Assembly: GCA_021774735.1 (NCBI GenBank)
Contig: JAJFIS010000038.1
Location: 1 to 50,634, forward strand
Source of the DNA: Alphaproteobacteria bacterium
Lineage (GTDB): Bacteria; Pseudomonadota; Alphaproteobacteria; Sphingomonadales; Kordiimonadaceae
Length of the DNA stretch: 50,634 nt
Reading direction: 5' to 3'
Shown: positions 10,766 to 23,703 of the stretch, piece after piece
Position numbering within the stretch: the first letter of the stretch is position 1
How the letters are laid out: every line of letters begins with the position of its first letter
Position numbers and translations under genes: made by a program
The notes under the pieces: model-generated
What the model was told of the DNA's origin: nothing
Seen by the model: the letters and a program-made list of their open reading frames with translations, nothing else
Databases searched by the model: none

Positions 10766-10854
10766 TCTGATACTAATTAGTAAATATTTCCGGGACAGGG
10801 TGGCCCATTAAGTTTGGCCCGGGGGATTGAGTGTTTTGGGGCCGGGGAAACGAC

Positions 10855-13536
10855 ATGCTTGGACTAGGCAAAATTGCCAAAAAATTCTTTGGCTCTGCAA
10901 ATGAACGTTATTTGAAGACACTGCAGCCAACTGTGGACGCCATTAATGCACTTGAAGGCGAGATGCAGGCGCTCGACGACGCGGCACTTAAGGCCAAGAC
11001 AGTTGAATTCCGTGGTCGCTTAGAAGCAGGTGAAACGTTAGATGATCTGATCGTTGAAGCTTTTGCCGTGGTTCGTGAAGCCGCAGTTCGCTCACTTGGC
11101 CTAAGGCACTATGACGTTCAGCTGATTGGTGGCTTGGTTCTCAACGATGGTAGTATTGCCGAGATGAAAACCGGCGAAGGTAAAACGCTGGTGGCAACGC
11201 TCGCGGCCTACTTGAATGCGCTGTCCGGTAAAGGCTGTCATGTGGTGACGGTCAATGACTATTTGGCCACCCGCGATTCTGACTGGATGGGCAGTGTTTA
11301 TAGTTTTCTTGGTATGACCACAGGCGTCATCGTTAACGGTGTTGAAGATGATGAGCGCCGGGAAGCTTACGGCGCTGATATTACCTATGGCACCAATAAT
11401 GAATTCGGCTTCGATTATCTCCGTGACAATATGAAATTCCAAGAAGAGGATATGGTCCAGCGAGAGTTTAATTTTGCCATCGTCGATGAAGTAGATTCGA
11501 TTTTGGTGGACGAAGCTCGGACCCCTTTGATCATATCTGGCCCGACCGAGGATAAGTCCGAGCTATATGTCACTATCGATAAGGTCATCAAAAGCTTGAG
11601 CGACGATGACTATGAGAAAGATGAAAAATCTAAAAATGTCACCTTGACGGAAGAAGGTACTAGTCGGATAGAAGAAATTTTGACCGAGCAAGGTTTGCTG
11701 GCGACCAACCATCTTTATGATTATGAAAATGTTGCCGTCGTGCACCATGTTGAGCAGGCGCTGAAAGCCATCACCATGTTCGAGCGCGATACGGATTATA
11801 TCGTCAACGGGGGCCGGATTGTTATCATTGACGAATTCACCGGTCGGATGATGGAGGGCAGACGTTTTTCCAATGGTTTGCACCAAGCGATTGAAGCCAA
11901 AGAAGGGGTCGATATTAAGCCAGAAAACCAAACGCTGGCGTCGGTTACTTTCCAAAATTACTTCCGCATGTTCCCAAAACTTTCTGGCATGACCGGTACA
12001 GCGCTGACGGAAGCAGAAGAATTTGGAGAAATTTACGGGTTGGGCGTGGTGGAAATACCGACCCATGTGCCTGTTCAACGCTTTGATGAAAATGATGAAT
12101 TTTACCGCACGGCGGATGAAAAATATGATGCGATCATTGAAGAACTTGGGAAATGCCAAACCAGCGGCCAACCGGTGCTGGTCGGCACGGTATCGATTGA
12201 AAAATCAGAGCATTTGTCATCATTGCTGAAAAAAGCCAAGCTGAAGCACCAAGTGCTGAACGCCCGCTACCATGACCAGGAAGCTTCGATTGTGGCGCAA
12301 GCTGGTCGCTTCGGCGCCATCACAATCGCCACCAACATGGCTGGTCGCGGTACCGACATTCAACTGGGCGGCAACCCTGATATGCGGGTTGAGGATGAGC
12401 TGGCTAAGGTGGACGATGAAAGAAAACGTGCCAAAGCAGAGGTGCGTATTCGCAGCGAAGTTTCCGCCGAGAAAGAAAAGGTCATTGAGGCGGGCGGGCT
12501 GTATATTATTGCCACGGAACGCCACGAATCACGGCGTATCGACAATCAGCTGCGTGGTCGCTCAGGCCGTCAAGGGGACCCGGGGCGGACCAAGTTTTTC
12601 TTATCCCTTCAAGATGACTTGATGCGCATTTTTGGCCCGGAGCGCATGGACAGCATGTTGGTGCGCCTGGGCATTGAAGAAGGTGAAGCTATAATTTCGC
12701 CGTGGATTAATAAAGCGATTGAAAAAGCCCAAGCCAAGGTGGAAGCGCGGAACTATGACATCCGCAAAAATCTCGTGAAATATGACGATGTGATGAACGA
12801 GCAGCGCAAAGTGATCTATGAACAGCGCCGGGATGTTATGGCAGCGGAGAGCGTTGAGGAAGAAATTAAATATATGCGTAGCGACGTCATTGAAAGTATG
12901 GTTGCGCGCCATATACCCTTGAAAGCCTTTAAGGCCGATTGGAACATGGAAGGTCTGCAAAAAGATGTGCTTGAGCAATTAGGCATGGATTTACCCGTTG
13001 TTGCATGGGGCGATGAAGAAGGCCTTGACGAAGAAGGCATCACGGAACGCCTAGAAGACGCATCGATGAAAATGATGGCGTCGAAATTAGCAACCTGTGG
13101 CCCAGAGTATTGGCGCCATTTGGAAAAGTCATTTTTGCTACAAGTGATCGATCAGGAATGGAAAGATCACTTATCGAACCTTGATCATTTGCGCCAAAGC
13201 GTGGGGCTTAGGGCATACGGTCAGCGCGACCCACTGAATGAATATAAGTCAGAAGGCTTCAGCCTGTTTGAGGGCATGATGAATCATACTCGCGAATCAG
13301 TAACCAAAGTTCTTGCGCTCATTCAGTTCGAAGCGGAAACGCCTGATCCATCTATACTTCAGCGCAGCAAACCTGTTGGCCGAGAAGAACATGTTAATCC
13401 GCAAACTGGTGAAAATGAAATGGCTTCTGGCGGTATTGACACCAATGACCCCTCAAGCTGGGGTAAGGTTTCACGCAACGCACCCTGCCCTTGTGGTTCG
13501 GGCACGAAATATAAGCATTGCCACGGCGCGATCTAA
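10855..13536 (+). CDS. secA: Preprotein translocase ATPase SecA
   Basis: SecA is the motor that pushes unfolded preproteins through SecYEG. The 893-residue protein has Walker A GEGKT at about 107-111, a DEAD-like Walker B ([18 protein letters not shown]), the helicase motifs [13 protein letters not shown] and [13 protein letters not shown], and a C-terminal zinc-binding tail [14 protein letters not shown] (Cys878, Cys880, Cys889, His890) that binds SecB or the ribosome. The ATG at 10855 is chosen over an in-frame GTG at 10831 because it gives the usual N-terminus ([18 protein letters not shown]) and follows a GGGGA site. Confidence 0.97.
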
Positions 13537-13616
13537 CGCATTTGATGGAAAACTTGTGTATTTACTCTGTATATGATTCAATGGTAGTTGATATTTGAAT
13601 TGGAAAGGGTGCAATC

Positions 13617-14099
13617 ATGGATAACCATTTGGTCGTGTTAAAGCTTTTCATAGATGGATTAGGGCTCGAGTTTAATATTGAGTCAGTTAATCATCGCAAA
13701 GCACTCCAAAAAGCAGTTTACTTAGGTCAACAAAAAGTAGATTTGGGCTATAAATATAGTTGGTATTTGAGAGGCCCATATAGCCCAGCATTGACGCAAG
13801 ATTATTTTGAACTTGAAGCTTATGACAACATTCAAGATGTGACAAATGGGAAATCGCTTAGGAGTGATATTGTGGAAAAATTAGGAAGCCTAAAGGTGCT
13901 TTTTACCACAAACAAACCAAGTGATATGAAGTCTCATGATTGGCTTGAATTATTATGCAGTATACATTTTTTGATGACCACTTCGAATAAAACAAAAGGT
14001 GATACTAAAAAAACGATTACTGAACAAAAAAACCATTTAATAAAGAATTTTGATACTGCATATAGTAATTTGAATAACTTTCTCCCTCTAAATAGATAA
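13617..14099 (+). CDS. YwgA-like protein, partner of the HD hydrolase
   Basis: This 160-residue protein has no enzyme motif that I can see. The pattern RKALQKAVYLGQQ followed by YSWYLRGPYSPALTQDYFEL resembles, from memory, Bacillus YwgA ('RK.LQK.iY' and 'GPYS..L'), a family often encoded beside an HD phosphohydrolase (YwfO). That is exactly the arrangement here: the HD gene starts two bases after this stop. The start at 13617 follows a GGAAAGG-type site. Base composition is visibly AT-richer than secA upstream, and codon use shifts to A/T endings, suggesting acquisition by transfer. Function is unknown; a small adaptor or regulator of the HD enzyme is inference. Confidence 0.65.
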   Translation: MDNHLVVLKLFIDGLGLEFNIESVNHRKALQKAVYLGQQKVDLGYKYSWYLRGPYSPALTQDYFELEAYDNIQDVTNGKSLRSDIVEKLGSLKVLFTTNKPSDMKSHDWLELLCSIHFLMTTSNKTKGDTKKTITEQKNHLIKNFDTAYSNLNNFLPLNR

Positions 14100-14101
14100 T
14101 T

Positions 14102-15514
14102 ATGCATAGATTGAAAGTTGAAAAATGTGTCACTGATGCAGTCCATGGCACTATTGAGCTGACGCCCGTTGAGGTTGATTTAATTTCGTCTCCTACGTTT
14201 CGTAGGCTTCATAACATACGTCAATTAGGCCTTACACATTTGGTCTTTCCTACAGCAAGCTACTCAAGACATTCGCATTCATTAGGCGCATGTCATGTTG
14301 CGAAGCAGATGTTTAAATCAATTAATCGGAAGTTAGAAAGCTCGAGACAAATTGATGAAAAAAAATTGCAAGAATATAGAATTGCAGCTTTGCTACATGA
14401 CATAGGACACTACCCTTTTTCTCATACATTTGAGCATGCTTTAAAAAAATATTATAATAATTCAAATCTTTTGAATGGGGGTGAAAATAACGTATCTACA
14501 GCTTTCGATCATGAGCAAGTAGGGGCTAAAATATTAATTTCAGATAGACACATAATAGAAATACTCAGTAAACATGACATTGACCCACAAGCAATAGAAA
14601 ATATTTTTAGGCCCAAAGAGCCAGGTGTATTATCTGCTATAATAAGCTCAGATTTGGATTGTGATCGTTTAGATTATTTAATGCGGACGGCTCTTCATAC
14701 AGGAAATCCATTTGGTAATGTTGATATAAACTATATTATTTCTCAGTGCGCATTAGATAGTAAAGATCAGCTTTGTCTGACACACAGAGCAAAAAAATCG
14801 GCAGACCATTTTTTGACATCGAGGTATTTTGACTACGCCCAAGGACCATTCAATAAAACCGTAGTAGCTTTAGAATATGCGCTAGAGATGGCAATAAAAA
14901 AGTTGTTAAAATTGGATATTTTAGATTGTTCGTCAGAAAAGATATCTAAAATGATAGTTAATTCTGATTGGTATAATTTTACCGATGATAAAATGATAAC
15001 CCTACTTAGAACGACATTCTATGACAATGCTAGAGAATTAGAAAAGGATGGAAGCATTCTGCATTTTAATGCAATTCTTCAAAGGCAGCCTGCTAAGTTA
15101 GCATGGTCAGTCGAAAATTTATCTAAAGATGATAAAGATAGAGAAAACCATAAACTGAAAAAAAATCTTGTTAAGGCAGCTGTTGATTCTTTTATTACGG
15201 AAAAAGGGTTAAGGGAAGAATGCATATTTGTTTGGGATGTCACTCTCCAAATTACTAAGATGGGGGGTCGTAACCGCACACAAATTCCGGTAGAAGATAG
15301 TAGCAAGGGTGTTGACGATCAATCTGGGCAGTTAATACGTATACTAAGTAGTGATGCTCTAGAAAGTACATTATTAGTAGATGACCCTTGCACTATCTCT
15401 CATATTCTTAGAGAATCTTCGTATCAAAGTTTACGTGTTTACTGTTATGAGGAAGAAAATCATAATTTGGGAAATGAATTAAACACATATATTAATAGTG
15501 AATTATCTAAATAA
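14102..15514 (+). CDS. HD-domain phosphohydrolase (dNTPase-like, YwfO/EF1143 type)
   Basis: This 470-residue protein carries the motif series of dGTPase-like HD enzymes: FRRLHNIRQLGLTHLVFP (33-50), SRHSHSLG with metal ligand His59, LLHDIGHYPFSH with His99-Asp100, and SSDLDCDRLDYLMRTA (182-197), which supplies the last metal Asp. Relatives hydrolyse dNTPs or other nucleotides. The C-terminal half from about 300 is unlike anything I recognise. It is coupled to the YwgA-like gene and shares its AT-rich composition. Metal ligands appear intact, so activity is expected; the substrate is unknown. A nucleotide-depleting, defence-like role is possible but not shown. Confidence 0.8.
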   Translation: MHRLKVEKCVTDAVHGTIELTPVEVDLISSPTFRRLHNIRQLGLTHLVFPTASYSRHSHSLGACHVAKQMFKSINRKLESSRQIDEKKLQEYRIAALLHDIGHYPFSHTFEHALKKYYNNSNLLNGGENNVSTAFDHEQVGAKILISDRHIIEILSKHDIDPQAIENIFRPKEPGVLSAIISSDLDCDRLDYLMRTALHTGNPFGNVDINYIISQCALDSKDQLCLTHRAKKSADHFLTSRYFDYAQGPFNKTVVALEYALEMAIKKLLKLDILDCSSEKISKMIVNSDWYNFTDDKMITLLRTTFYDNARELEKDGSILHFNAILQRQPAKLAWSVENLSKDDKDRENHKLKKNLVKAAVDSFITEKGLREECIFVWDVTLQITKMGGRNRTQIPVEDSSKGVDDQSGQLIRILSSDALESTLLVDDPCTISHILRESSYQSLRVYCYEEENHNLGNELNTYINSELSK

Positions 15515-15533
15515 TTTCTGAAAGAGAAATAAT

Positions 15534-16130
15534 ATGGGATATTTTCCAGGACTTGAAGAGGGCTCACACTTAACCGATGTATTTAAGAAATTTGGCATGG
15601 GGCTGGAAAATCTTACCGCTTTTCACGATGATATTCTGCGGGGGGAAAGCGAGCTGACCATCGCTGAGCGCGAACTGATAGCTGCTTTTGTATCCGCCAG
15701 CAATGATTGTCAGTTTTGCTATAATGCCCATAAGGTTTATGCGGTTTCTTTTGGTATTGACGAAAATGTCTTCGACGCTCTGATTGCTGATGTGGACAGT
15801 GCGCCCATTGATGAAAAGTTGAAGCCTATCTTGAAATATTGCCGCAAGCTTACCCTGACGCCGTCCAAGATGGTGCAGGGTGATGTAGACAGTGTGATGG
15901 CTGCTGGTTGGGGCGGCGAGGCCCTACATACAGCGGTTCTGGTCACGGGGCTTTTTAATTTGATGAACCGCATTATCTTCAGCCATGGTTTGCCAAGTAA
16001 CGAATCTGCTTATTCAGAGCGAAAAAGCACTATTTTAGAGCGCTCGCTTAAAGACCGCACCGCTGCGAATAGTGCAGATATTGGCAGTAAGCCCTATGCA
16101 GATTTTGCAAAAATGGTTAAAAATAAGTAA
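15534..16130 (+). CDS. AhpD-like / carboxymuconolactone decarboxylase family peroxidase-related protein
   Basis: This 198-residue, all-helical cytosolic protein contains the AhpD core: TIAERELIAAFVSASNDCQFC with Cys59 and Cys62, and His66 in YNAHKVY. The CxxC-x3-His site is the redox and proton-relay centre of alkylhydroperoxidase D-like proteins. The family is broad and its members act in peroxide reduction or unknown chemistry. It begins 19 bases after the HD gene, but base composition returns to that of the host chromosome, so it is probably a resident gene next to the acquired cassette rather than part of it. Confidence 0.85.
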   Translation: MGYFPGLEEGSHLTDVFKKFGMGLENLTAFHDDILRGESELTIAERELIAAFVSASNDCQFCYNAHKVYAVSFGIDENVFDALIADVDSAPIDEKLKPILKYCRKLTLTPSKMVQGDVDSVMAAGWGGEALHTAVLVTGLFNLMNRIIFSHGLPSNESAYSERKSTILERSLKDRTAANSADIGSKPYADFAKMVKNK

Positions 16131-17388: not shown

Positions 17389-17442
17389 CGTTTCATACAA
17401 TAGGTTCAGTTTATGGTGATTTTAGTTTATAGGAGAATAGTG

Positions 17443-18648
17443 ATGTTTCGTTGGAAAACCATATTGGCTTCGGCCTTAATCGTCTTCAGTTTTGCCAGTG
17501 GGGCGCAAGCCCATGGCGGCAAACATAATCGCGCTGACACATATTTTCGTTTTGATGCTGGTGATTATGGCTATTATTACCTCAATCATGACGAACTAAA
17601 CAGCCTTAGGGTTCTGCCCTATTTGGCGGCTATGCAAGTACTCTTGAATGAGTATTTACCTTACCGTCACGATGCTGGCTATAGCCATTACCGACAGAGC
17701 TATTGGTATGACCATGGCCGAGGTTACAATCGTTATTATACCGCACCTTCGCCTATTTATTGGTTTGGTGGTCTGCGTTGGGGCTATAACAATAATAGTT
17801 GGCGGACCCATTTTAGCTGGAATGTTGGCTATGGCTGGTACAGCAACCATCGGTCGGTTCATCGTTATTATAAAAAATCTCATTTTCGCAAGCACCGTGC
17901 GCGCAGCGGTTACCGGGACCATAATTACGCGAAACATCGCTCTCGGCACAACAGCAGACGTCATGACGGCGACCGCGTAAGGCATAATCGCCGGGATCAC
18001 GCTGCTACATCGCGGTGGCATAATGGCCGTGATAGCAACCGGCAACGAAGCAGGGAACGCACAGGCCGTGATTACCGTGATCATGATGGTAATAGGGACA
18101 GAAACCGCACCCGTACACGCACACGGGACCATGACGGTGATCGCACCCGCACGCGCACCCGCACACGGGACCATGATGGTGATCGCACCCGCACGCGCAC
18201 CCGCACGCGGGATAATGACGGTGATCACACCCGCACGCGCACCCGCACGCGGGACCATGATGGTGATCGCACCCGCACCCGTACACGCACGCGGGATAAT
18301 GACGGTGATCGCACCCGCACGCGCACCCGCACACGGGACCATGATGGTGATCGCACCCGCACCCGTACACGCACGCGGGATAATGACGGTGATCGCACCC
18401 GCACCCGTACACGCACACGGGATAATGACGGTGATCGCACCCGCACCCACACACGCACGCGGGATAATGATGGCAACCGAGATCGCCGCCGCGAACGTAG
18501 TCGCAGTCAACAGCGCGACCATGATAGCAACAATGAACGCAGTAGTGAGGGTAATCGGGAAAAGAAAAAGGCCCGGAGCGAAAAAAAGCGTGAGCGTAAA
18601 AATAAGCACCGGAATCGTAGTGGAAACTCAAACCGCCACAAACGTTAA
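17443..18648 (+). CDS. Secreted His/Tyr- and Arg-rich protein with Arg-Thr/Asp tandem repeats
   Basis: This 401-residue protein starts at 17443, where AGGAGA gives a good ribosome binding site; an upstream GTG lacks one. The signal peptide is about residues 1-23, cleaved after AQA. The N-terminal mature part is rich in Tyr, His and Trp (GDYGYYYLNHDEL, WGYNNNSWRTHFSW) and resembles low-complexity RcnB-like envelope proteins only loosely. Residues 219-344 are nine 14-residue repeats of the type DRTRTRTRTRD(H/N)DG. The tail is highly basic (Lys/Arg). Such a charge-patterned protein could bind polyanions or metals, but no function can be assigned. It ends at a strong terminator facing nrdB. Confidence 0.75.
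   Translation: MFRWKTILASALIVFSFASGAQAHGGKHNRADTYFRFDAGDYGYYYLNHDELNSLRVLPYLAAMQVLLNEYLPYRHDAGYSHYRQSYWYDHGRGYNRYYTAPSPIYWFGGLRWGYNNNSWRTHFSWNVGYGWYSNHRSVHRYYKKSHFRKHRARSGYRDHNYAKHRSRHNSRRHDGDRVRHNRRDHAATSRWHNGRDSNRQRSRERTGRDYRDHDGNRDRNRTRTRTRDHDGDRTRTRTRTRDHDGDRTRTRTRTRDNDGDHTRTRTRTRDHDGDRTRTRTRTRDNDGDRTRTRTRTRDHDGDRTRTRTRTRDNDGDRTRTRTRTRDNDGDRTRTHTRTRDNDGNRDRRRERSRSQQRDHDSNNERSSEGNREKKKARSEKKRERKNKHRNRSGNSNRHKR
18097..18474 (+). repeat. Nine in-frame 42-base tandem repeats
   Basis: Nine units of 42 bases encode DRTRTRTRTRDHDG or DRTRTRTRTRDNDG, with His and Asn varying between units. The pattern in order is H, H, N, H, N, H, N, N, N. Within a unit, CGCACCCGC subrepeats add a six-base periodicity. 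The array stays in frame, so slippage would change length without breaking the gene. Confidence 0.95.
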
Positions 18649-18715: not shown

Positions 18716-19678
18716 TTATGTACCAAAAGCCTCATCCCAAGTTCCTTGGGTCGCGGCTTTGGAATATTCTGTGGCGCGGCTTTCAAAGAAATTAGCATGC
18801 TCAACCGCATTAAGCATGGTGTCTATCCAAGGGATTGGGTTTTTTTCAATCAGATAAATTGGGTCTAGCCCTAGTTGCTGTAAGCGCCGGTCGGCAATAT
18901 AACGGATATAGCTTTTAATTTCATGGGCCGTCATCCCTTCCACAGGCCCCATCTCGAAGGCTAAGTCGATGAAGGCATCTTCATGCTCAACAATGGTGCG
19001 GCAGATGGAATATAGCTCTTCTTGTAAGCTTTGGTCCCACAGTTCTGGCATTTCAGAGACAAGCGTGCGGAACAGTTTAATTATGCTTTCACAGTGCAGG
19101 CTCTCATCGCGGACCGACCATGTTACGATCTGCCCCATGCCCTTCATTTTGTTAAAGCGCGGGAAATTAAGCAGCATGGCAAAGCTGGCAAAAAGCTGCA
19201 GGCCCTCGGTGAAGGCGCCGAACGTTGCAAGCGTAATAGCAACACTGCGCATATCATCGCTATTGAAGCGCTGCATATAGTCGAACTTATCTTTCATTTC
19301 TTTATAGTCAAAGAAGGCAGCATACTCAGTTTCTGGCATCCCAATGGTATCTAAAAGGTGGCTATAGGCGGCAATATGTACTGTTTCCATATTGGAAAAA
19401 GCCCCCAGCATCATCTGGATTTCAATGGGTTTGAAAATCTTAGTATAATGCTTCATATAGCAATTATTAACTTCGATATCCGCTTGGGTGAAAAACCGAA
19501 AAATTTGCGTTAGCAGATTAATCTCCGCCTCATTGAGGTTGTTTTTCCAGTCTTTGACATCTTCGGCCAGCGGCACTTCCTCCGGTAGCCAGTGGATGCG
19601 TTGCTGTTGCAGCCAGGCTTCATAGGCCCAAGGGTAGCGAAAAGGTTTATAAACGTGGCGTTCTTCAAGAAGTGACAT
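18716..19678 (-). CDS. nrdB: Class Ia ribonucleoside-diphosphate reductase, beta subunit
   Basis: This 320-residue ferritin-like protein houses the diiron-tyrosyl radical cofactor that starts ribonucleotide reduction in NrdA. Iron-site residues appear in FTQADIEVNNCYMKHY and METVHIAAYSHLL; in the latter, E-x2-H-x3-Y places the radical Tyr as in class Ia enzymes, arguing against a tyrosine-less class Ic. The second pair of ligands is in WSVRDESLHCESI. The start at 19678 follows AAAGGA by five bases; an ATG six bases upstream overlaps that site. It is separated from nrdA by an unrelated 2-kb gene on the same strand, an unusual arrangement. Confidence 0.95.
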   Translation of the reverse strand: MSLLEERHVYKPFRYPWAYEAWLQQQRIHWLPEEVPLAEDVKDWKNNLNEAEINLLTQIFRFFTQADIEVNNCYMKHYTKIFKPIEIQMMLGAFSNMETVHIAAYSHLLDTIGMPETEYAAFFDYKEMKDKFDYMQRFNSDDMRSVAITLATFGAFTEGLQLFASFAMLLNFPRFNKMKGMGQIVTWSVRDESLHCESIIKLFRTLVSEMPELWDQSLQEELYSICRTIVEHEDAFIDLAFEMGPVEGMTAHEIKSYIRYIADRRLQQLGLDPIYLIEKNPIPWIDTMLNAVEHANFFESRATEYSKAATQGTWDEAFGT

Positions 19679-19704
19679 GGGCATCCTTTAGTGGTGGTTT
19701 GCTG

Positions 19705-21780
19705 TTATTCTACAGGCATGGTGATTTCATTAACGCGCATAATCCAAGCCGTGCGGTATTTTGGTTTGTCAGAATCTGATTGGAAGATCAACAAGCTTTT
19801 CCACTGGCCAATATAATGGAGATGGAAGTTCATAGAAAGCGCTTTTGGGATCGATTTTATAAATTCGATGTCTTTGGCTTTATTTATCAGACAGAGAAGT
19901 GTGTTTTTACCCCTACGCACTAAGAAATATATTTCACCAGCTTCCCCCTTTGTTGCAGTAATGGGCGGATATGGATGGCTTTGGACGCATTTCTCATTCA
20001 AAGCTAATGTAGTTATTATTTTAGTGACCGGATCAATAGAACGGATTACCCGGCCACCCTTCTCAATGGTGATTATTTGGTTTATCTTGGTGTCAAACAG
20101 ACTGGTTATTTGGGGGCCAATGTCTAAGGCAGGTAATATTGGTGTCCAGCTGGCATCGCTTTGTTGCCACTTATAGAGCCCTTGCCGGAGCTGGCTACTC
20201 TCACCGCCAATGGGCAACAAACCATTTTCTGTATTGATATGGCCAAGGGCATATAGTGTATCACCATTAGTATTAGCGATTAAACTGCCGCTAAAAAGCC
20301 TGGGTGCATTTCTAGCTTGATCTAATATACGCCATTTTATTTTAACAGGATCATAGCACCATAGCTTAGTAACTTGTGGCCGGTTTGGTAGGAAAGCCAT
20401 CGGCAAATGGTGAAAACTTCCTCCAAGCACGGCCATGCATTTCTCACTTTTCAGCCATGCTGTCTGGCCGTAAGTATGCTGAGCAACCGGGCGTTGATTA
20501 GCTGACCGAAGTGCGGGCACAAATTGACCGACTTCAAAGTTTCTAGCTTTAAACCAGGAAGGAGACGAGGGTTGATCAATGCCCCATGTTTGATTGTCTA
20601 AATTAAAGCGTGAAACATTGTTATTGCTATCTTTTCCGTGGGTGTCAGCGCCAAAAAACATATAGCTATTGGTGCCAGCCACATGGACGCTTGCATCATG
20701 CTCGACTGTTGAGCTCATATTTGCCGACTTCATTTTTGTCCATACATAAAGAGGAGCATTTTGGACATTATCTGGCATCCCCATGGGGCGCGATTGCATC
20801 AGGGCTAATTCCGCTTGAAACATCGATGGCGAGCTTATTTGGCCGCCGACACCCAAAAATATGATGAATATAGGTATCAAACTGACGAACATTATTCGTG
20901 TAAGTTTCCCCATGCTATTGAAATAGAGGGCTAAGAAAATACCACTAATAATAAGAACTAAGATAGGGCTTACAGTTGGAATTGAGATAAATAACAATAA
21001 ACAAAAAGCGATTAATAAGGTCATTGTAGCAACAAGAAATGCCTTAGAAGCCAACAGGCCAAATTTGTATTTTTGCGCACCTTTTATGGTCAATAGTTTG
21101 GCGATAACAACTAGAAAAGTCATCCCAGCAAGTGTTTCAGTGCTGTTCATATTAAGGGCAAATGAGATGAACGCTGTAGCAAATAGCCCGCCGATAAGAA
21201 GGCCTGATATCAAGTGCATTTTGCTATTTTTTATTTGGTTTTGGCGTATATTTTTCAGAATGAAAACGGTAGCAATAATCGCAGCTAATAGGGATATAAA
21301 GGCGTCAGCAAAAATGGTTGGAAGCAGGATGAACGGTGTAGTTAAAATAAATATAAGCGAGTTGTTTTTTGCGTTATTGTTGATGTTATGATGCGCATTC
21401 ATTTGCGCCGATACGTATATTATAATGGCAAAAAATAAAACATTGGGACTTATGGGGTCCGCTAAAAAACGAATGAGCATGAAGCTAGTATCGAGTTTTG
21501 TAGCATAGGTCAAAGCGATGATAAGGCCAAAGCCTAATATCCATAACATATGATTGCGCCAAAACATCAATCCATTGATGAAGCCCGTCAAGAGGATCAG
21601 CATTCCTATGATGGGATAGAAAAACACGAAATCTGTGGCCACAGAGATCGCCTTTAACTGCCTAACACCAAACTGCATTGTATAAAAAATGCAAATACCC
21701 AGCAAAATTCCGATTGAAGCTATATGTAAGAACGTCTGTGGCTTATGATCATCTGGTAATTCGGGTGTTGCCAACATCAT
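19705..21780 (-). CDS. Unrecognised membrane protein with C-terminal propeller-like domain, inside the nrd locus
   Basis: This 691-residue protein has two parts. Residues 1-315 contain about ten hydrophobic helices ending at IMFVSLIPIFIIFLGVGG. Residues 330-691 are soluble, with recurring short strands and aromatic/Gly motifs (NSYMFFGADTHGKD, KCMAVLGGSFHHLP, KLWCYDPVKIKWRIL, GDTLYALGHINT, GRVIRSIDPVTK) that suggest a Kelch-like beta-propeller, here inferred to lie outside the membrane. I cannot name a family. It lies between nrdA (63 bases) and nrdB (26 bases) on the same strand, so it is probably co-transcribed with them. It is AT-richer than its neighbours, consistent with insertion. No reductase-related motif is visible. 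Confidence 0.65.
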   Translation of the reverse strand: MMLATPELPDDHKPQTFLHIASIGILLGICIFYTMQFGVRQLKAISVATDFVFFYPIIGMLILLTGFINGLMFWRNHMLWILGFGLIIALTYATKLDTSFMLIRFLADPISPNVLFFAIIIYVSAQMNAHHNINNNAKNNSLIFILTTPFILLPTIFADAFISLLAAIIATVFILKNIRQNQIKNSKMHLISGLLIGGLFATAFISFALNMNSTETLAGMTFLVVIAKLLTIKGAQKYKFGLLASKAFLVATMTLLIAFCLLLFISIPTVSPILVLIISGIFLALYFNSMGKLTRIMFVSLIPIFIIFLGVGGQISSPSMFQAELALMQSRPMGMPDNVQNAPLYVWTKMKSANMSSTVEHDASVHVAGTNSYMFFGADTHGKDSNNNVSRFNLDNQTWGIDQPSSPSWFKARNFEVGQFVPALRSANQRPVAQHTYGQTAWLKSEKCMAVLGGSFHHLPMAFLPNRPQVTKLWCYDPVKIKWRILDQARNAPRLFSGSLIANTNGDTLYALGHINTENGLLPIGGESSQLRQGLYKWQQSDASWTPILPALDIGPQITSLFDTKINQIITIEKGGRVIRSIDPVTKIITTLALNEKCVQSHPYPPITATKGEAGEIYFLVRRGKNTLLCLINKAKDIEFIKSIPKALSMNFHLHYIGQWKSLLIFQSDSDKPKYRTAWIMRVNEITMPVE

Positions 21781-21843
21781 CCAGCCTTATTTATAGGGTG
21801 ACTATTCCATCTGGGCCAAGCATCTTCGACCATGATATTCTCA

Positions 21844-23703
21844 TTATTGACAGGCCAAACATTCTTCATAATTTTCAGATTGTGAAGCGGCGGGCGCGGC
21901 GGCTAATGGTAAGGTCAAGTCTTCAGGTGATGGCACTGGCCGCTGGCTGTCTTGAACAGCAGCAATATTGGATACCACTTCGGCCCGCTGCAGGGATTTA
22001 GATCGGCAATAATAGAGGCTTTTCACCCCTTTTTTCCAGGCTTGATAATGGATTTGGTGCAAGTCGCGCTTATGCACGTCGGCCGGCAAAAATACATTGA
22101 TCGACTGCGCTTGAGATATGAAGGGCGCGCGGTCGGCGGCCAGATCAATCACCCAGCGTTGATCAAGTTCGAAGGCAGACTTGAAAACATCTTTTTCATC
22201 TTGGGTTAAAAACTCAAGATGTTGCACTGATCCTTCGCGCGTGGTGATTGAGCTCCAAACTTCGTCAGTATTCTCACCTTTTTCTTCTAGCAGTTTGGTC
22301 AGAGCGGCATTGCGGACATTGAAACTGCCTGATAGGGTTTTTTGGACATAACTATTGCCCGCTATAGGCTCTATGCCCGGGCTGGCACCACCGCAGATGG
22401 TTGAAATTGATGCGGTCGGGGCGATGGCGGTTTTATTGGAGAAACGCTCCATCATGCCATAGTCCATCGCGTCGGGGCAGGGGCCACGCTCGATGGCTAA
22501 ATCGTGGGATGCTTGGTCGACATCGGATTTAATATGTTTGAATATTTTCTTATTCCACGCTTTGGCTATAGCAGATTCGAACGGCACCATATTATTCTGC
22601 AAAAAGCTGTGGAAGCCCATCACACCAAGCCCAACGGAACGCTCCCGCATGGCAGAATAGCGCGCTTTGGCCATATCATCAGGGGCACGGTCGATAAAAT
22701 CCTGTAGAACATTATCGAGAAAACGCATGATGTCTGGAATGAATTGGTTGTTCTTTTGCCAATCTTTAAAATGTTCTAAATTTAGCGAGGATAGACAGCA
22801 AACAGCGGTACGCTCGTTACCCAGATGGTCAAGCCCTGTCGGCAGCGTTATTTCGGCGCATAGGTTGGATGTCTTAACTGTTAAACCTGCCAATTTATGA
22901 TGTTCAGGCATTTGATTGTTCACGGTATCAGAGAAGATCAAATAGGGTTCGCCAGTTTCAATGCGGGCCTGAAGCAAGCGTATCCATATGCTGCGTGCAG
23001 ACAGGGTGCGAACCACATGGCCGTCTTTGGGGCTGGTCAGGGCCCAGTCTTCATCCGCGTCCACAGCGCGCATGAAAGCATCAGACAAAAGTACGCCGTG
23101 GTGCAAATTTTGCGCTTTTCGGTTTGGGTCACCGCCGGTTGGGCGGCGCATTTCGATGAATTCTTCAATTTCAGGGTGGCTAACGGGCAAATAAACCGCC
23201 GCCGAGCCCCGGCGCAAACTGCCTTGGCTGATGGCAAGGGTTAAGCTGTCCATTACGCGCACAAAAGGGATAATGCCGCTGGTCTTGCCAACACCACCAA
23301 CCGTCTCACCGATTGAACGTAGGTTGCCCCAATAGCTGCCAATGCCGCCACCCTTGGAGGCCAGCCAGACATTTTCAGTCCACAGGCCGACGATAGAATT
23401 TAAGCTATCTTGCGCCTCATTTAAGAAGCAACTGATGGGCAAACCCCTGTGAGTGCCGCCATTAGATAAAACGGGAGTAGCAGGCATGAACCATAGCTGC
23501 GACATATAATTATATAGGCGCTGGGCATGCTCTTGGTCATCACCATAATAGCTGGCCACGCGGGCAAACATATCTTGGTATGATTCGCCTGGCATTAAAT
23601 AACGGTCTTTCAGGGTTTCTTTGCCAAAATCGGTCAAAAGCGCATCGCGGCTGCGATCAACCTTCACTGCACCGCCGTGCTCAAAATGTGTTACCTCAAA
23701 CAT
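21844..23703 (-). CDS. nrdA: Class Ia ribonucleoside-diphosphate reductase, alpha subunit
   Basis: NrdA reduces ribonucleoside diphosphates to deoxy forms. The 619-residue sequence has the active-site cysteines in PISCFLNEA and AVCCLSSLNL, the thiyl-radical Cys in KTSNLCAEI, the P-loop-like PTASISTICGGASPGIEP, the YY radical-transfer pair in SLYYCRSKS, and the C-terminal redox pair CLAC at 615-618. There is no N-terminal ATP-cone before the catalytic core, so dATP overall-activity control through a cone is probably absent. It is the first gene of nrdA-X-nrdB, with NrdR and DnaA sites upstream. Confidence 0.96.
   Translation of the reverse strand: MFEVTHFEHGGAVKVDRSRDALLTDFGKETLKDRYLMPGESYQDMFARVASYYGDDQEHAQRLYNYMSQLWFMPATPVLSNGGTHRGLPISCFLNEAQDSLNSIVGLWTENVWLASKGGGIGSYWGNLRSIGETVGGVGKTSGIIPFVRVMDSLTLAISQGSLRRGSAAVYLPVSHPEIEEFIEMRRPTGGDPNRKAQNLHHGVLLSDAFMRAVDADEDWALTSPKDGHVVRTLSARSIWIRLLQARIETGEPYLIFSDTVNNQMPEHHKLAGLTVKTSNLCAEITLPTGLDHLGNERTAVCCLSSLNLEHFKDWQKNNQFIPDIMRFLDNVLQDFIDRAPDDMAKARYSAMRERSVGLGVMGFHSFLQNNMVPFESAIAKAWNKKIFKHIKSDVDQASHDLAIERGPCPDAMDYGMMERFSNKTAIAPTASISTICGGASPGIEPIAGNSYVQKTLSGSFNVRNAALTKLLEEKGENTDEVWSSITTREGSVQHLEFLTQDEKDVFKSAFELDQRWVIDLAADRAPFISQAQSINVFLPADVHKRDLHQIHYQAWKKGVKSLYYCRSKSLQRAEVVSNIAAVQDSQRPVPSPEDLTLPLAAAPAASQSENYEECLACQ

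Follow-up and report, generated by a model that had tools for sequence, protein, structure and literature searches.

A horizontally acquired two-gene cassette pairing a SAMHD1-like HD protein with a DarG-like small protein looks like a mobile phage-defence or toxin-antitoxin module

The human enzyme SAMHD1 is an antiviral deoxynucleoside triphosphate (dNTP) triphosphohydrolase (dNTPase), and bacterial dNTPases defend against phages too. To our knowledge, little is settled about how bacterial SAMHD1-like enzymes are kept safe outside infection. Here we analyze a two-gene cassette at positions 13617 to 15514 of a 50,634-nucleotide stretch of DNA from an alphaproteobacterium of the family Kordiimonadaceae (contig JAJFIS010000038.1; hereafter, the whole stretch is 'the window'), in which the gene for a small protein precedes the gene for a SAMHD1-like HD protein, and which has the look of a module for phage defence or toxin-antitoxin action that travels widely and is so far undescribed. 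With a small partner resembling an antitoxin that accompanies a bacterial relative of SAMHD1 across many phyla, and on phage-like contigs as well, the question of safe-keeping becomes testable with two small genes.

The closest described systems each resemble the locus in part (papers cited by PMC number are drawn on here from excerpts of their text). In Clover, the dNTPase CloA, which is toxic without its dedicated regulator, is encoded with the nucleotidyltransferase CloB (PMC12265719); the window locus likewise has two genes, for an HD dNTPase-like protein and a proposed dedicated regulator, but this regulator is DarG-like rather than a Pol-beta-type nucleotidyltransferase, and CloA is likened to Dgt-type enzymes (PMC12265719), whereas the window HD enzyme is SAMHD1-like. 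Membership in Clover was considered and rejected: the partner folds like DarG and matched no nucleotidyltransferase. In DarTG, the C-terminal domain of DarG blocks the active site of DarT (PMC11481870); the small protein of the window shares the fold and the profile of this toxin-binding domain and may bind its own partner, but at 160 amino acids (aa) it lacks the N-terminal macrodomain of DarG, and in place of DarT the locus has an HD dNTPase-like partner, with secA as the upstream gene. EF1143/YwfO (COG1078) and the window HD protein have a common fold over 404 residues (Z 33.8) and identical metal-binding and catalytic residues, but EF1143 is reported to be activated by dGTP (PMC8177086), whereas the window protein has S29, R34, and H37 at the SAMHD1 guanine-effector positions D137, Q142, and R145 and its gene has a DarG-like partner gene attached. 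In Bacillus-type genomes, YwfO adjoins a small relative, YwgA (as in Priestia, L107), but there the HD gene comes first and the small gene second, and the similarity is at profile level only. Panacea/SocA proteins, finally, are small neutraliser-type proteins beside unrelated effectors and have a similar motif layout, but the window protein has no Pfam match, and its profile match to Panacea is suggestive (hhalign probability 32%). No description of the pair, or of a link between DarG and YwgA, was found in the open PMC papers searched; the excerpted text of PMC8832971 contains none of the terms 'HD domain', 'dNTP', and 'phosphohydrolase'.

The features of the locus are as follows:
13617..14099, + strand: small gene, 160 aa; stand-alone DarG-C-terminal-like/YwgA-family protein, proposed inhibitor of the HD enzyme
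14102..15514, + strand: HD gene, 470 aa; SAMHD1/EF1143-type protein, predicted dNTP triphosphohydrolase (effector)
13537..15533, + strand: AT-rich inserted segment, from secA stop to ahpD start; limits approximate
10831..13536, + strand: secA; left border of the insertion, outside the module
15534..16130, + strand: AhpD/CMD-type gene (Pfam CMD, 2.4e-6); right border of the insertion, outside the module

The ahpD gene comes straight after secA in four same-order relatives, with gaps of 21, 56, 71, and 218 bases (genomes G030, G032, G038, and G036, respectively), and the HD gene was found in none of 24 genomes of the same family; the segment between secA and ahpD in the window is therefore an insertion. 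In one genome (G029) secA and ahpD are widely separated, and a close AhpD gene is missing from many relatives (one is matched at E 0.001 in 20 of 41 genomes). The HD protein was matched in 4 of the 41 relatives searched, with most of the query spanned in only two, namely the window and G039, a genome of another family in which an HD protein with 42% identity has its own small gene and unrelated neighbours. The composition of the segment also differs from that of its surroundings, with a guanine-plus-cytosine (G+C) content of 34.0% vs. 47.4% in the surrounding 12 kb. The small gene (G+C 0.329; third positions 0.298) and the HD gene (0.346; third positions 0.259) have the two lowest G+C values among the 39 window open reading frames (ORFs) of at least 150 aa (mean 0.492, standard deviation (SD) 0.045; third positions 0.484, SD 0.066), a set chosen by length, without a gene finder, that includes the pair. 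Searches for attachment repeats, target duplications, and direct repeats bracketing the segment found none, and the relatives are too distant for the ends of the insertion to be placed to the base. Scans gave 14 promoter-like sites (8.9 expected, SD 2.8) and one terminator-like site (1.1 expected). We conclude that the cassette is a horizontally acquired insertion. The initial annotation of this DNA had described two tightly coupled genes, AT-richer than both flanks, with no att repeat in sight, and had proposed that they may be a mobile, functionally paired module; both ORFs are present, on the same strand as secA and ahpD and separated by two bases, and the absence of the pair from close relatives, together with the secA-ahpD junctions that lack it, bears out that it was not inherited vertically at this locus. 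The mobility thus stands, but the argument offered for it, distance from Bacillus, was not the right one, because in the tree of HD proteins the nearest relatives of the window copy are other Alphaproteobacteria.

By fold and catalytic residues, the 470-aa protein is a predicted dNTPase of the SAMHD1/EF1143 type. It matches Pfam HD (2.4e-9), and its closest solved structures by sequence are 2hek (1.3e-27), EF1143 2o6i (3.4e-27; also 3irh and 4lrl), 2q14, and SAMHD1. An AlphaFold2 model built from 31 sequences (predicted local distance difference test score, pLDDT, 89.1; predicted template-modelling score, pTM, 0.89) matches 2hek with Z 35.7 (363 residues, 2.3 Å), EF1143 3irh with the Z score given above (2.8 Å, model residues 3-470), and SAMHD1 with Z about 32; these matches show that the model includes the C-lobe characteristic of SAMHD1-like enzymes. 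The active-site residues are conserved across 84 aligned HD proteins:
14276..14278, + strand: His59, metal ligand; His in 84/84
14396..14401, + strand: His99-Asp100, HD motif; 84/84
14423..14434, + strand: His108 and Glu111, counterpart of the catalytic His-acid pair (SAMHD1 H215/D218); 84/84 and 83/84
14510..14512, + strand: His137, counterpart of SAMHD1 H233; 84/84
14663..14665, + strand: Asp188, fourth metal ligand, in DLDCDRLDYL; 84/84
Arg56 and His103 are likewise invariant (84/84), and the counterpart of Q149 is kept in the window copy as Gln41.

The residues at the effector site are less well kept. In all five members of the alphaproteobacterial clade to which the window copy belongs, Ser replaces D137, His replaces R145, and Thr replaces D319; in the window copy, Arg additionally replaces Q142 and Asn replaces H376. 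Comparison of core paired with unpaired HD proteins gives D137 kept in 14/36 vs. 29/38, Q142 in 27/36 vs. 35/38, R145 in 24/36 vs. 29/38, D319 in 23/36 vs. 38/38, and H376 in 27/36 vs. 36/38; D137, Q142, and R145 are a usual, not a strict, mark of the SAMHD1-like class. Positions up to window residue 111 were verified on SAMHD1 alignments, and H376 through EF1143 and 2hek alignments only. Further SAMHD1 positions used in the comparison are Q149, H167, H206, D218, D311, Y315, and D319. The numbering of D137, Q142, R145, and H376 follows PMC7854603, and that of R164, D207, H210, H215, and H233 follows PMC8177086. According to excerpts of PMC7854603, guanine recognition by D137, Q142, R145, and R451 is highly conserved in prokaryotic SAMHD1-like enzymes, H376 is among the most conserved residues of these enzymes, and Dgt-type enzymes dominate in Proteobacteria; by these statements, the window copy is unusual twice, in its effector residues and in being a SAMHD1-like enzyme in a proteobacterium. 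Guanine-nucleotide control of the window enzyme is, to judge from these positions, probably altered. A Dgt-like dGTPase was rejected as an identification (NCBIfam dGTP_triPase TIGR01353, 44.9 bits vs. a cut-off of 152.35).

Profiles and structural models indicate that the small protein is a stand-alone relative of the C-terminal domain of DarG and, by sequence, also a relative of the YwgA family. The PADLOC DarG model matches the window protein weakly (E 0.001, model positions 181-308 of 329), and the weak match is borne out because all 33 members of family alignment A5, including the window, match the same model (best 6.6e-9); the PADLOC candidate model PDC-M19A is matched weakly by 14 of the 33 (best 3.1e-5). 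The small gene also encodes a conserved motif:
13773..13784, + strand: GPYS motif, residues 53-56 of the small protein; G53, P54, and Y55 in 33/33, residue 56 S in 22 and C in 11
The AlphaFold2 model (pLDDT 95.0, pTM 0.90) has a sole good Foldseek match, the DarG chain of Mycobacterium tuberculosis DarTG 7yk3 (E 2.4e-3, template-modelling score 0.64; next E 2.2), which VIA aligns with Z 12.8 over 145 residues at 3.2 Å (next entry Z 2.8). In hhalign comparisons, the paired small proteins match the C-terminal parts of DarG with 99.1% probability (score 114.8) and YwgA-like proteins with 99.0% (score 110.9), and seven decoy comparisons score 9.9 to 22.4. The protein that adjoins YwfO in Priestia megaterium, WP_013059848.1, which we take to be YwgA from its neighbourhood (the record says hypothetical), matches the small-family profile with an hmmsearch E value of 3.9e-12, and with 1.3e-8 when the profile lacks any YwgA-like seed (database size set to 5000). 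Thus, the initial annotation was correct in calling the small protein YwgA-like, and the motifs that it listed, His59, His99-Asp100, SSDLDCDRLDYL, and GPYS, are all present, but it missed the identity of the small protein as an antitoxin domain of the DarG type. The signs of kinship with Panacea are suggestive: PF13274 (Panacea), which the window protein does not match, is matched by 3 of the 33 relatives (best 0.0013), and hhalign against a Panacea profile built from the 11 of 22 loci tried that passed a motif filter gives a score of 28.7 for the paired small proteins, 67% (35.4) for YwgA-like proteins, and 11% (25.3) for DarG parts, with decoys at 22.4 or below. VIA covers only the best chains from Foldseek, so nothing follows from the lack of Panacea or SocA structures there. 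DarG is said to mimic single-stranded DNA; the small proteins have a near-neutral net charge (median -0.5, n=46; window +2), and because the C-terminal parts of seven DarG proteins (-5 to +9) are near neutral too, charge is uninformative on such mimicry either way.

To place the pair in other genomes, contigs were scanned with a profile of the HD alignment, and the best 80 of 365 relatives were taken as loci. Forty of these 80 have an intact adjoining small gene (including L045, L053, and L065, found stop-to-stop), the first 19 (L027-L045) are all paired or broken, and the hosts include Alphaproteobacteria, Planctomycetota, Acidobacteriota, Chlorobiota, Armatimonadota, Verrucomicrobiota, Bacillota, and methanogens, so that the pair, which the initial annotation placed in Bacillus, co-occurs widely. 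At a 41st paired locus, in Bradyrhizobium erythrophlei GAS478 (L037:4230-8382), both genes are broken, the small gene into two pieces about 2.2 kb apart with a 561-aa ORF between them and the HD gene into two frames; we count this co-decay in favour of a module. Of 42 pairs (37 from the HD-alignment scan, the other five from searches of genomes), 35 have the small gene upstream of the HD gene and on its strand, five have it downstream on that strand, and two have it downstream on the opposite strand; the gaps range from -55 to +98 bases. In a tree of 84 HD proteins (without L004, L037, L080, and rows under 330 aa), the paired label needs 5 changes vs. 28 on average for shuffled labels, one 28-row clade is wholly paired (support 93/91), and the window protein groups with those of Erythrobacter, Bradyrhizobium, G039, and G331 in an alphaproteobacterial clade of five rows (100/100). 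Distances among small proteins correlate with distances among HD proteins, with Mantel r of 0.73 for 45 pairs (best of 5000 permutations 0.18) and 0.77 for 39 pairs (best of 5000 permutations 0.23).

Searches that start from the small protein give a corresponding picture. Profile A1 has seven matches in 337 alphaproteobacterial genomes, all adjoining an HD gene (one a fragment at a contig end), and profile A5 has 11 in 398 genomes of the phylum, comprising three HD-paired (window included), seven DarG with macrodomain, and one unrelated-looking ORF. The order of the host of L050 (246 genomes) has 11 places in nine genomes, 10 HD-paired and one a fragment; Planctomycetota, the phylum of the host of L101 (246 genomes), has seven matches, four HD-paired, two DarG, and one neither. 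Combined, these searches give 35 distinct places, of which 23 lie beside an HD gene (the window and L200, identical to L050, being members of the query profiles), nine are DarG, and three are neither. In A1-A4 the minus-strand references L002 and L021 are clipped at the start and run past the stop; A5, A6, and the tree are unaffected. A single-sequence scan of genome contigs with the window HD protein gave no result, a search of plasmids with the window small protein found nothing, and the window HD protein matched 46 plasmid and 13 phage records, none covering 80% of it. No natural fusion of the two proteins was found; the only ORF longer than 280 aa with the domain of the small protein, at L076, lacks an HD part.

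The pair also bears marks of mobility outside the window. It is AT-richer than its flanks at all 34 paired loci compared (the 40 intact loci minus L080, a near-copy of L078, and minus five with short flanks or a long span), with a mean difference of 7.9 points, and at 25 of them the difference exceeds 3 points. The control, from other taxa and with the HD gene alone measured, covers 35 of 39 HD genes without a partner; there the mean difference is +0.6 points, and 8 of 35 are lower in G+C than their flanks. Holin- and amidase-like ORFs precede the pair at L201, which is what one would expect of prophage cargo (these ORFs, DarT beside DarG, and NrdA/NrdB were recognised by eye). Ten viral-contig loci have a relative of the small protein: two are HD-paired, on phage-like contigs identical in make-up over the compared stretch, five place it before an NTPase gene, and three do neither. 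In the five NTPase contigs (L186:3899-7005, L187:3941-6994, L188:3902-6981, L189:3941-7013, and L190:3917-7012), the gene after the small relative encodes a protein of 838-851 aa, part of which is a KAP-type NTPase (Pfam E 1.1e-6 to 3e-4, above the cut-off in 5/5), two of the five KAP/STAND-type proteins have a weak, below-cut-off match to the restriction-nuclease family HSDR_N_2, and PADLOC on four of the five contigs gave weak matches only; the combination is a candidate for a separate defence system. We conclude that the small gene and the HD gene form a mobile, compact unit with a conserved partner, as in type II toxin-antitoxin systems.

According to the hypothesis that we favour, and that we believe and doubt in about equal measure, the cassette is a horizontally acquired module in which a dNTPase is held inactive by the DarG-C-like small protein and freed in phage infection. 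The hypothesis draws on two analogies, the contact of the DarG C-terminal domain with a DNA-acting toxin and the restraint of the Clover dNTPase by its partner. The small protein would bind the HD enzyme directly and keep it inactive; during infection, a phage protein, a shift in dNTPs, or loss of the inhibitor would free the enzyme, which would split dNTPs into nucleoside and triphosphate; and the freed enzyme, presumably toxic, would drain dNTPs so that phage and host DNA synthesis stops. The computed support consists of the insertion, the travelling pair, the fold and catalytic residues of the enzyme, and the kinship of the small protein to DarG and YwgA; the replaced effector residues would suit an enzyme whose control has passed in part to a partner protein. 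An antiviral role, which the initial annotation had raised, may be envisaged for the pair. A wider proposal is more tentative, and we suspect that it may well fail: the DarG-C/YwgA proteins could be one partner-exchanging family, with the DarG C-terminal domain as one branch, that regulates several unrelated phage-defence effectors, namely DarT, SAMHD1-type dNTPases, and prophage KAP/STAND-type NTPases; the dNTPase of the window branch, a bacterial relative of SAMHD1, would then have given up part of its nucleotide allostery, with a protein antitoxin holding it off and phage providing the trigger. If the family does guard DarT and the prophage NTPase as well, the DarG C-terminal fold would be a marker by which new defence systems could be found and would join Panacea as a second promiscuous antitoxin domain.

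Several observations weigh against the hypothesis that we favour. The Z score of 12.8 with 7yk3 lies just under about 13, where helical proteins may match by common arrangement, and the Foldseek E value is 2.4e-3; we nevertheless hold the kinship with DarG to be real because of the gap to the next fold match and because of the sequence profiles. At 39 of the best 80 HD loci there is no small-family match nearby, L061 and L070, whose clade is otherwise mostly paired, keep the catalytic residues but have no small gene, so that the HD enzyme can, at least there, live without a partner, and HD loci in plasmid and phage records have a small-family neighbour in only one of nine cases (eight without). 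The Mantel correlation is expected from simple joint inheritance as well, and the window copy sits among housekeeping genes. In Bacillus subtilis, ywgA and ywfO are singly deletable, which would speak against a strict toxin-antitoxin pair. Among the matches listed for 122 of 189 listed neighbour ORFs are two HSDR_N, two C5 methylase, and one NgoMIV, which are not used as evidence.

Some of these observations suit a rather unlikely alternative, in which the pair is an accessory metabolic one that serves the upkeep of the nucleotide pool, the enzyme trimming dNTPs or damaged dNTPs and the small protein acting as positive subunit, chaperone, or allosteric adaptor. YwfO-type genes have similar neighbourhoods in Priestia, with an adjoining YwgA relative, and in Listeria, without one, the HD genes of L061 and L070 lie among ordinary genes, and a pool-cleaning role has been proposed for YwfO (PMC4993169); but the patchy occurrence among the relatives searched, the AT-richness of every paired locus compared, the phage-like carriers, and the kinship of the partner to an antitoxin domain argue against this reading. 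Less probable still is a plain addiction module, without a phage-linked trigger, in which the HD enzyme is the toxin and the small protein a type II antitoxin: the leading position of the small gene in 35 of 42 pairs, the overlapping or close genes, the kinship to DarG, and the co-decay at L037 would be expected of it, whereas L061, L070, and many lineages of the outgroup have the enzyme but no small gene, and a length of about 470 aa exceeds what is usual for classical toxins. Defence and addiction are, moreover, not mutually exclusive. It is improbable that the enzyme acts beyond bulk dNTPs, on a signalling or modified nucleotide or on nucleic acid, with the small protein supplying specificity. 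The replacement of the D137, R145, and D319 counterparts throughout the alphaproteobacterial clade, and of Q142 and H376 in the window, indicates that substrate or effector use may differ, and SAMHD1 binds oligonucleotides at its allosteric sites (PMC7854603, excerpts), but the metal ligands, Arg56, His103, His108, and His137 are kept, as is Gln41 of the window protein.

Other arrangements of HD genes were seen in the same material. At L122:2-3122, an HD and YwgA-like pair directly precedes a type I restriction gene that encodes an HsdM-type methylase. Alphaproteobacterial plasmid HD genes at L113:2936-4676, L114:2957-5846, and L115:2956-5855 follow a gene for a 134-138-aa protein outside the DarG-like family and make up a different two-gene HD pair, and on plasmids of Roseibium (L109:267-3886) and Sinorhizobium (L110:1138-4925) a SAMHD1-like HD gene ends a run with radical SAM, 3'-5' exonuclease, and AAA ATPase genes. 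Micrarchaeal SAMHD1-like HD genes form one unpaired clade, with an ORF of about 300 aa directly upstream in L058, L060, L062, L069, L071, L072, and L077. In the window itself, NrdB- and NrdA-like ribonucleotide reductase genes lie at 18716-23703, 3 kb downstream of the pair; an NrdB-like gene is near ahpD also in G032 (L009), so the closeness to ribonucleotide reductase may predate the insertion. Between them and ahpD, at 17413-18648, a 411-aa protein contains a long run of HDGDRTRTRTRTRD-like repeats.

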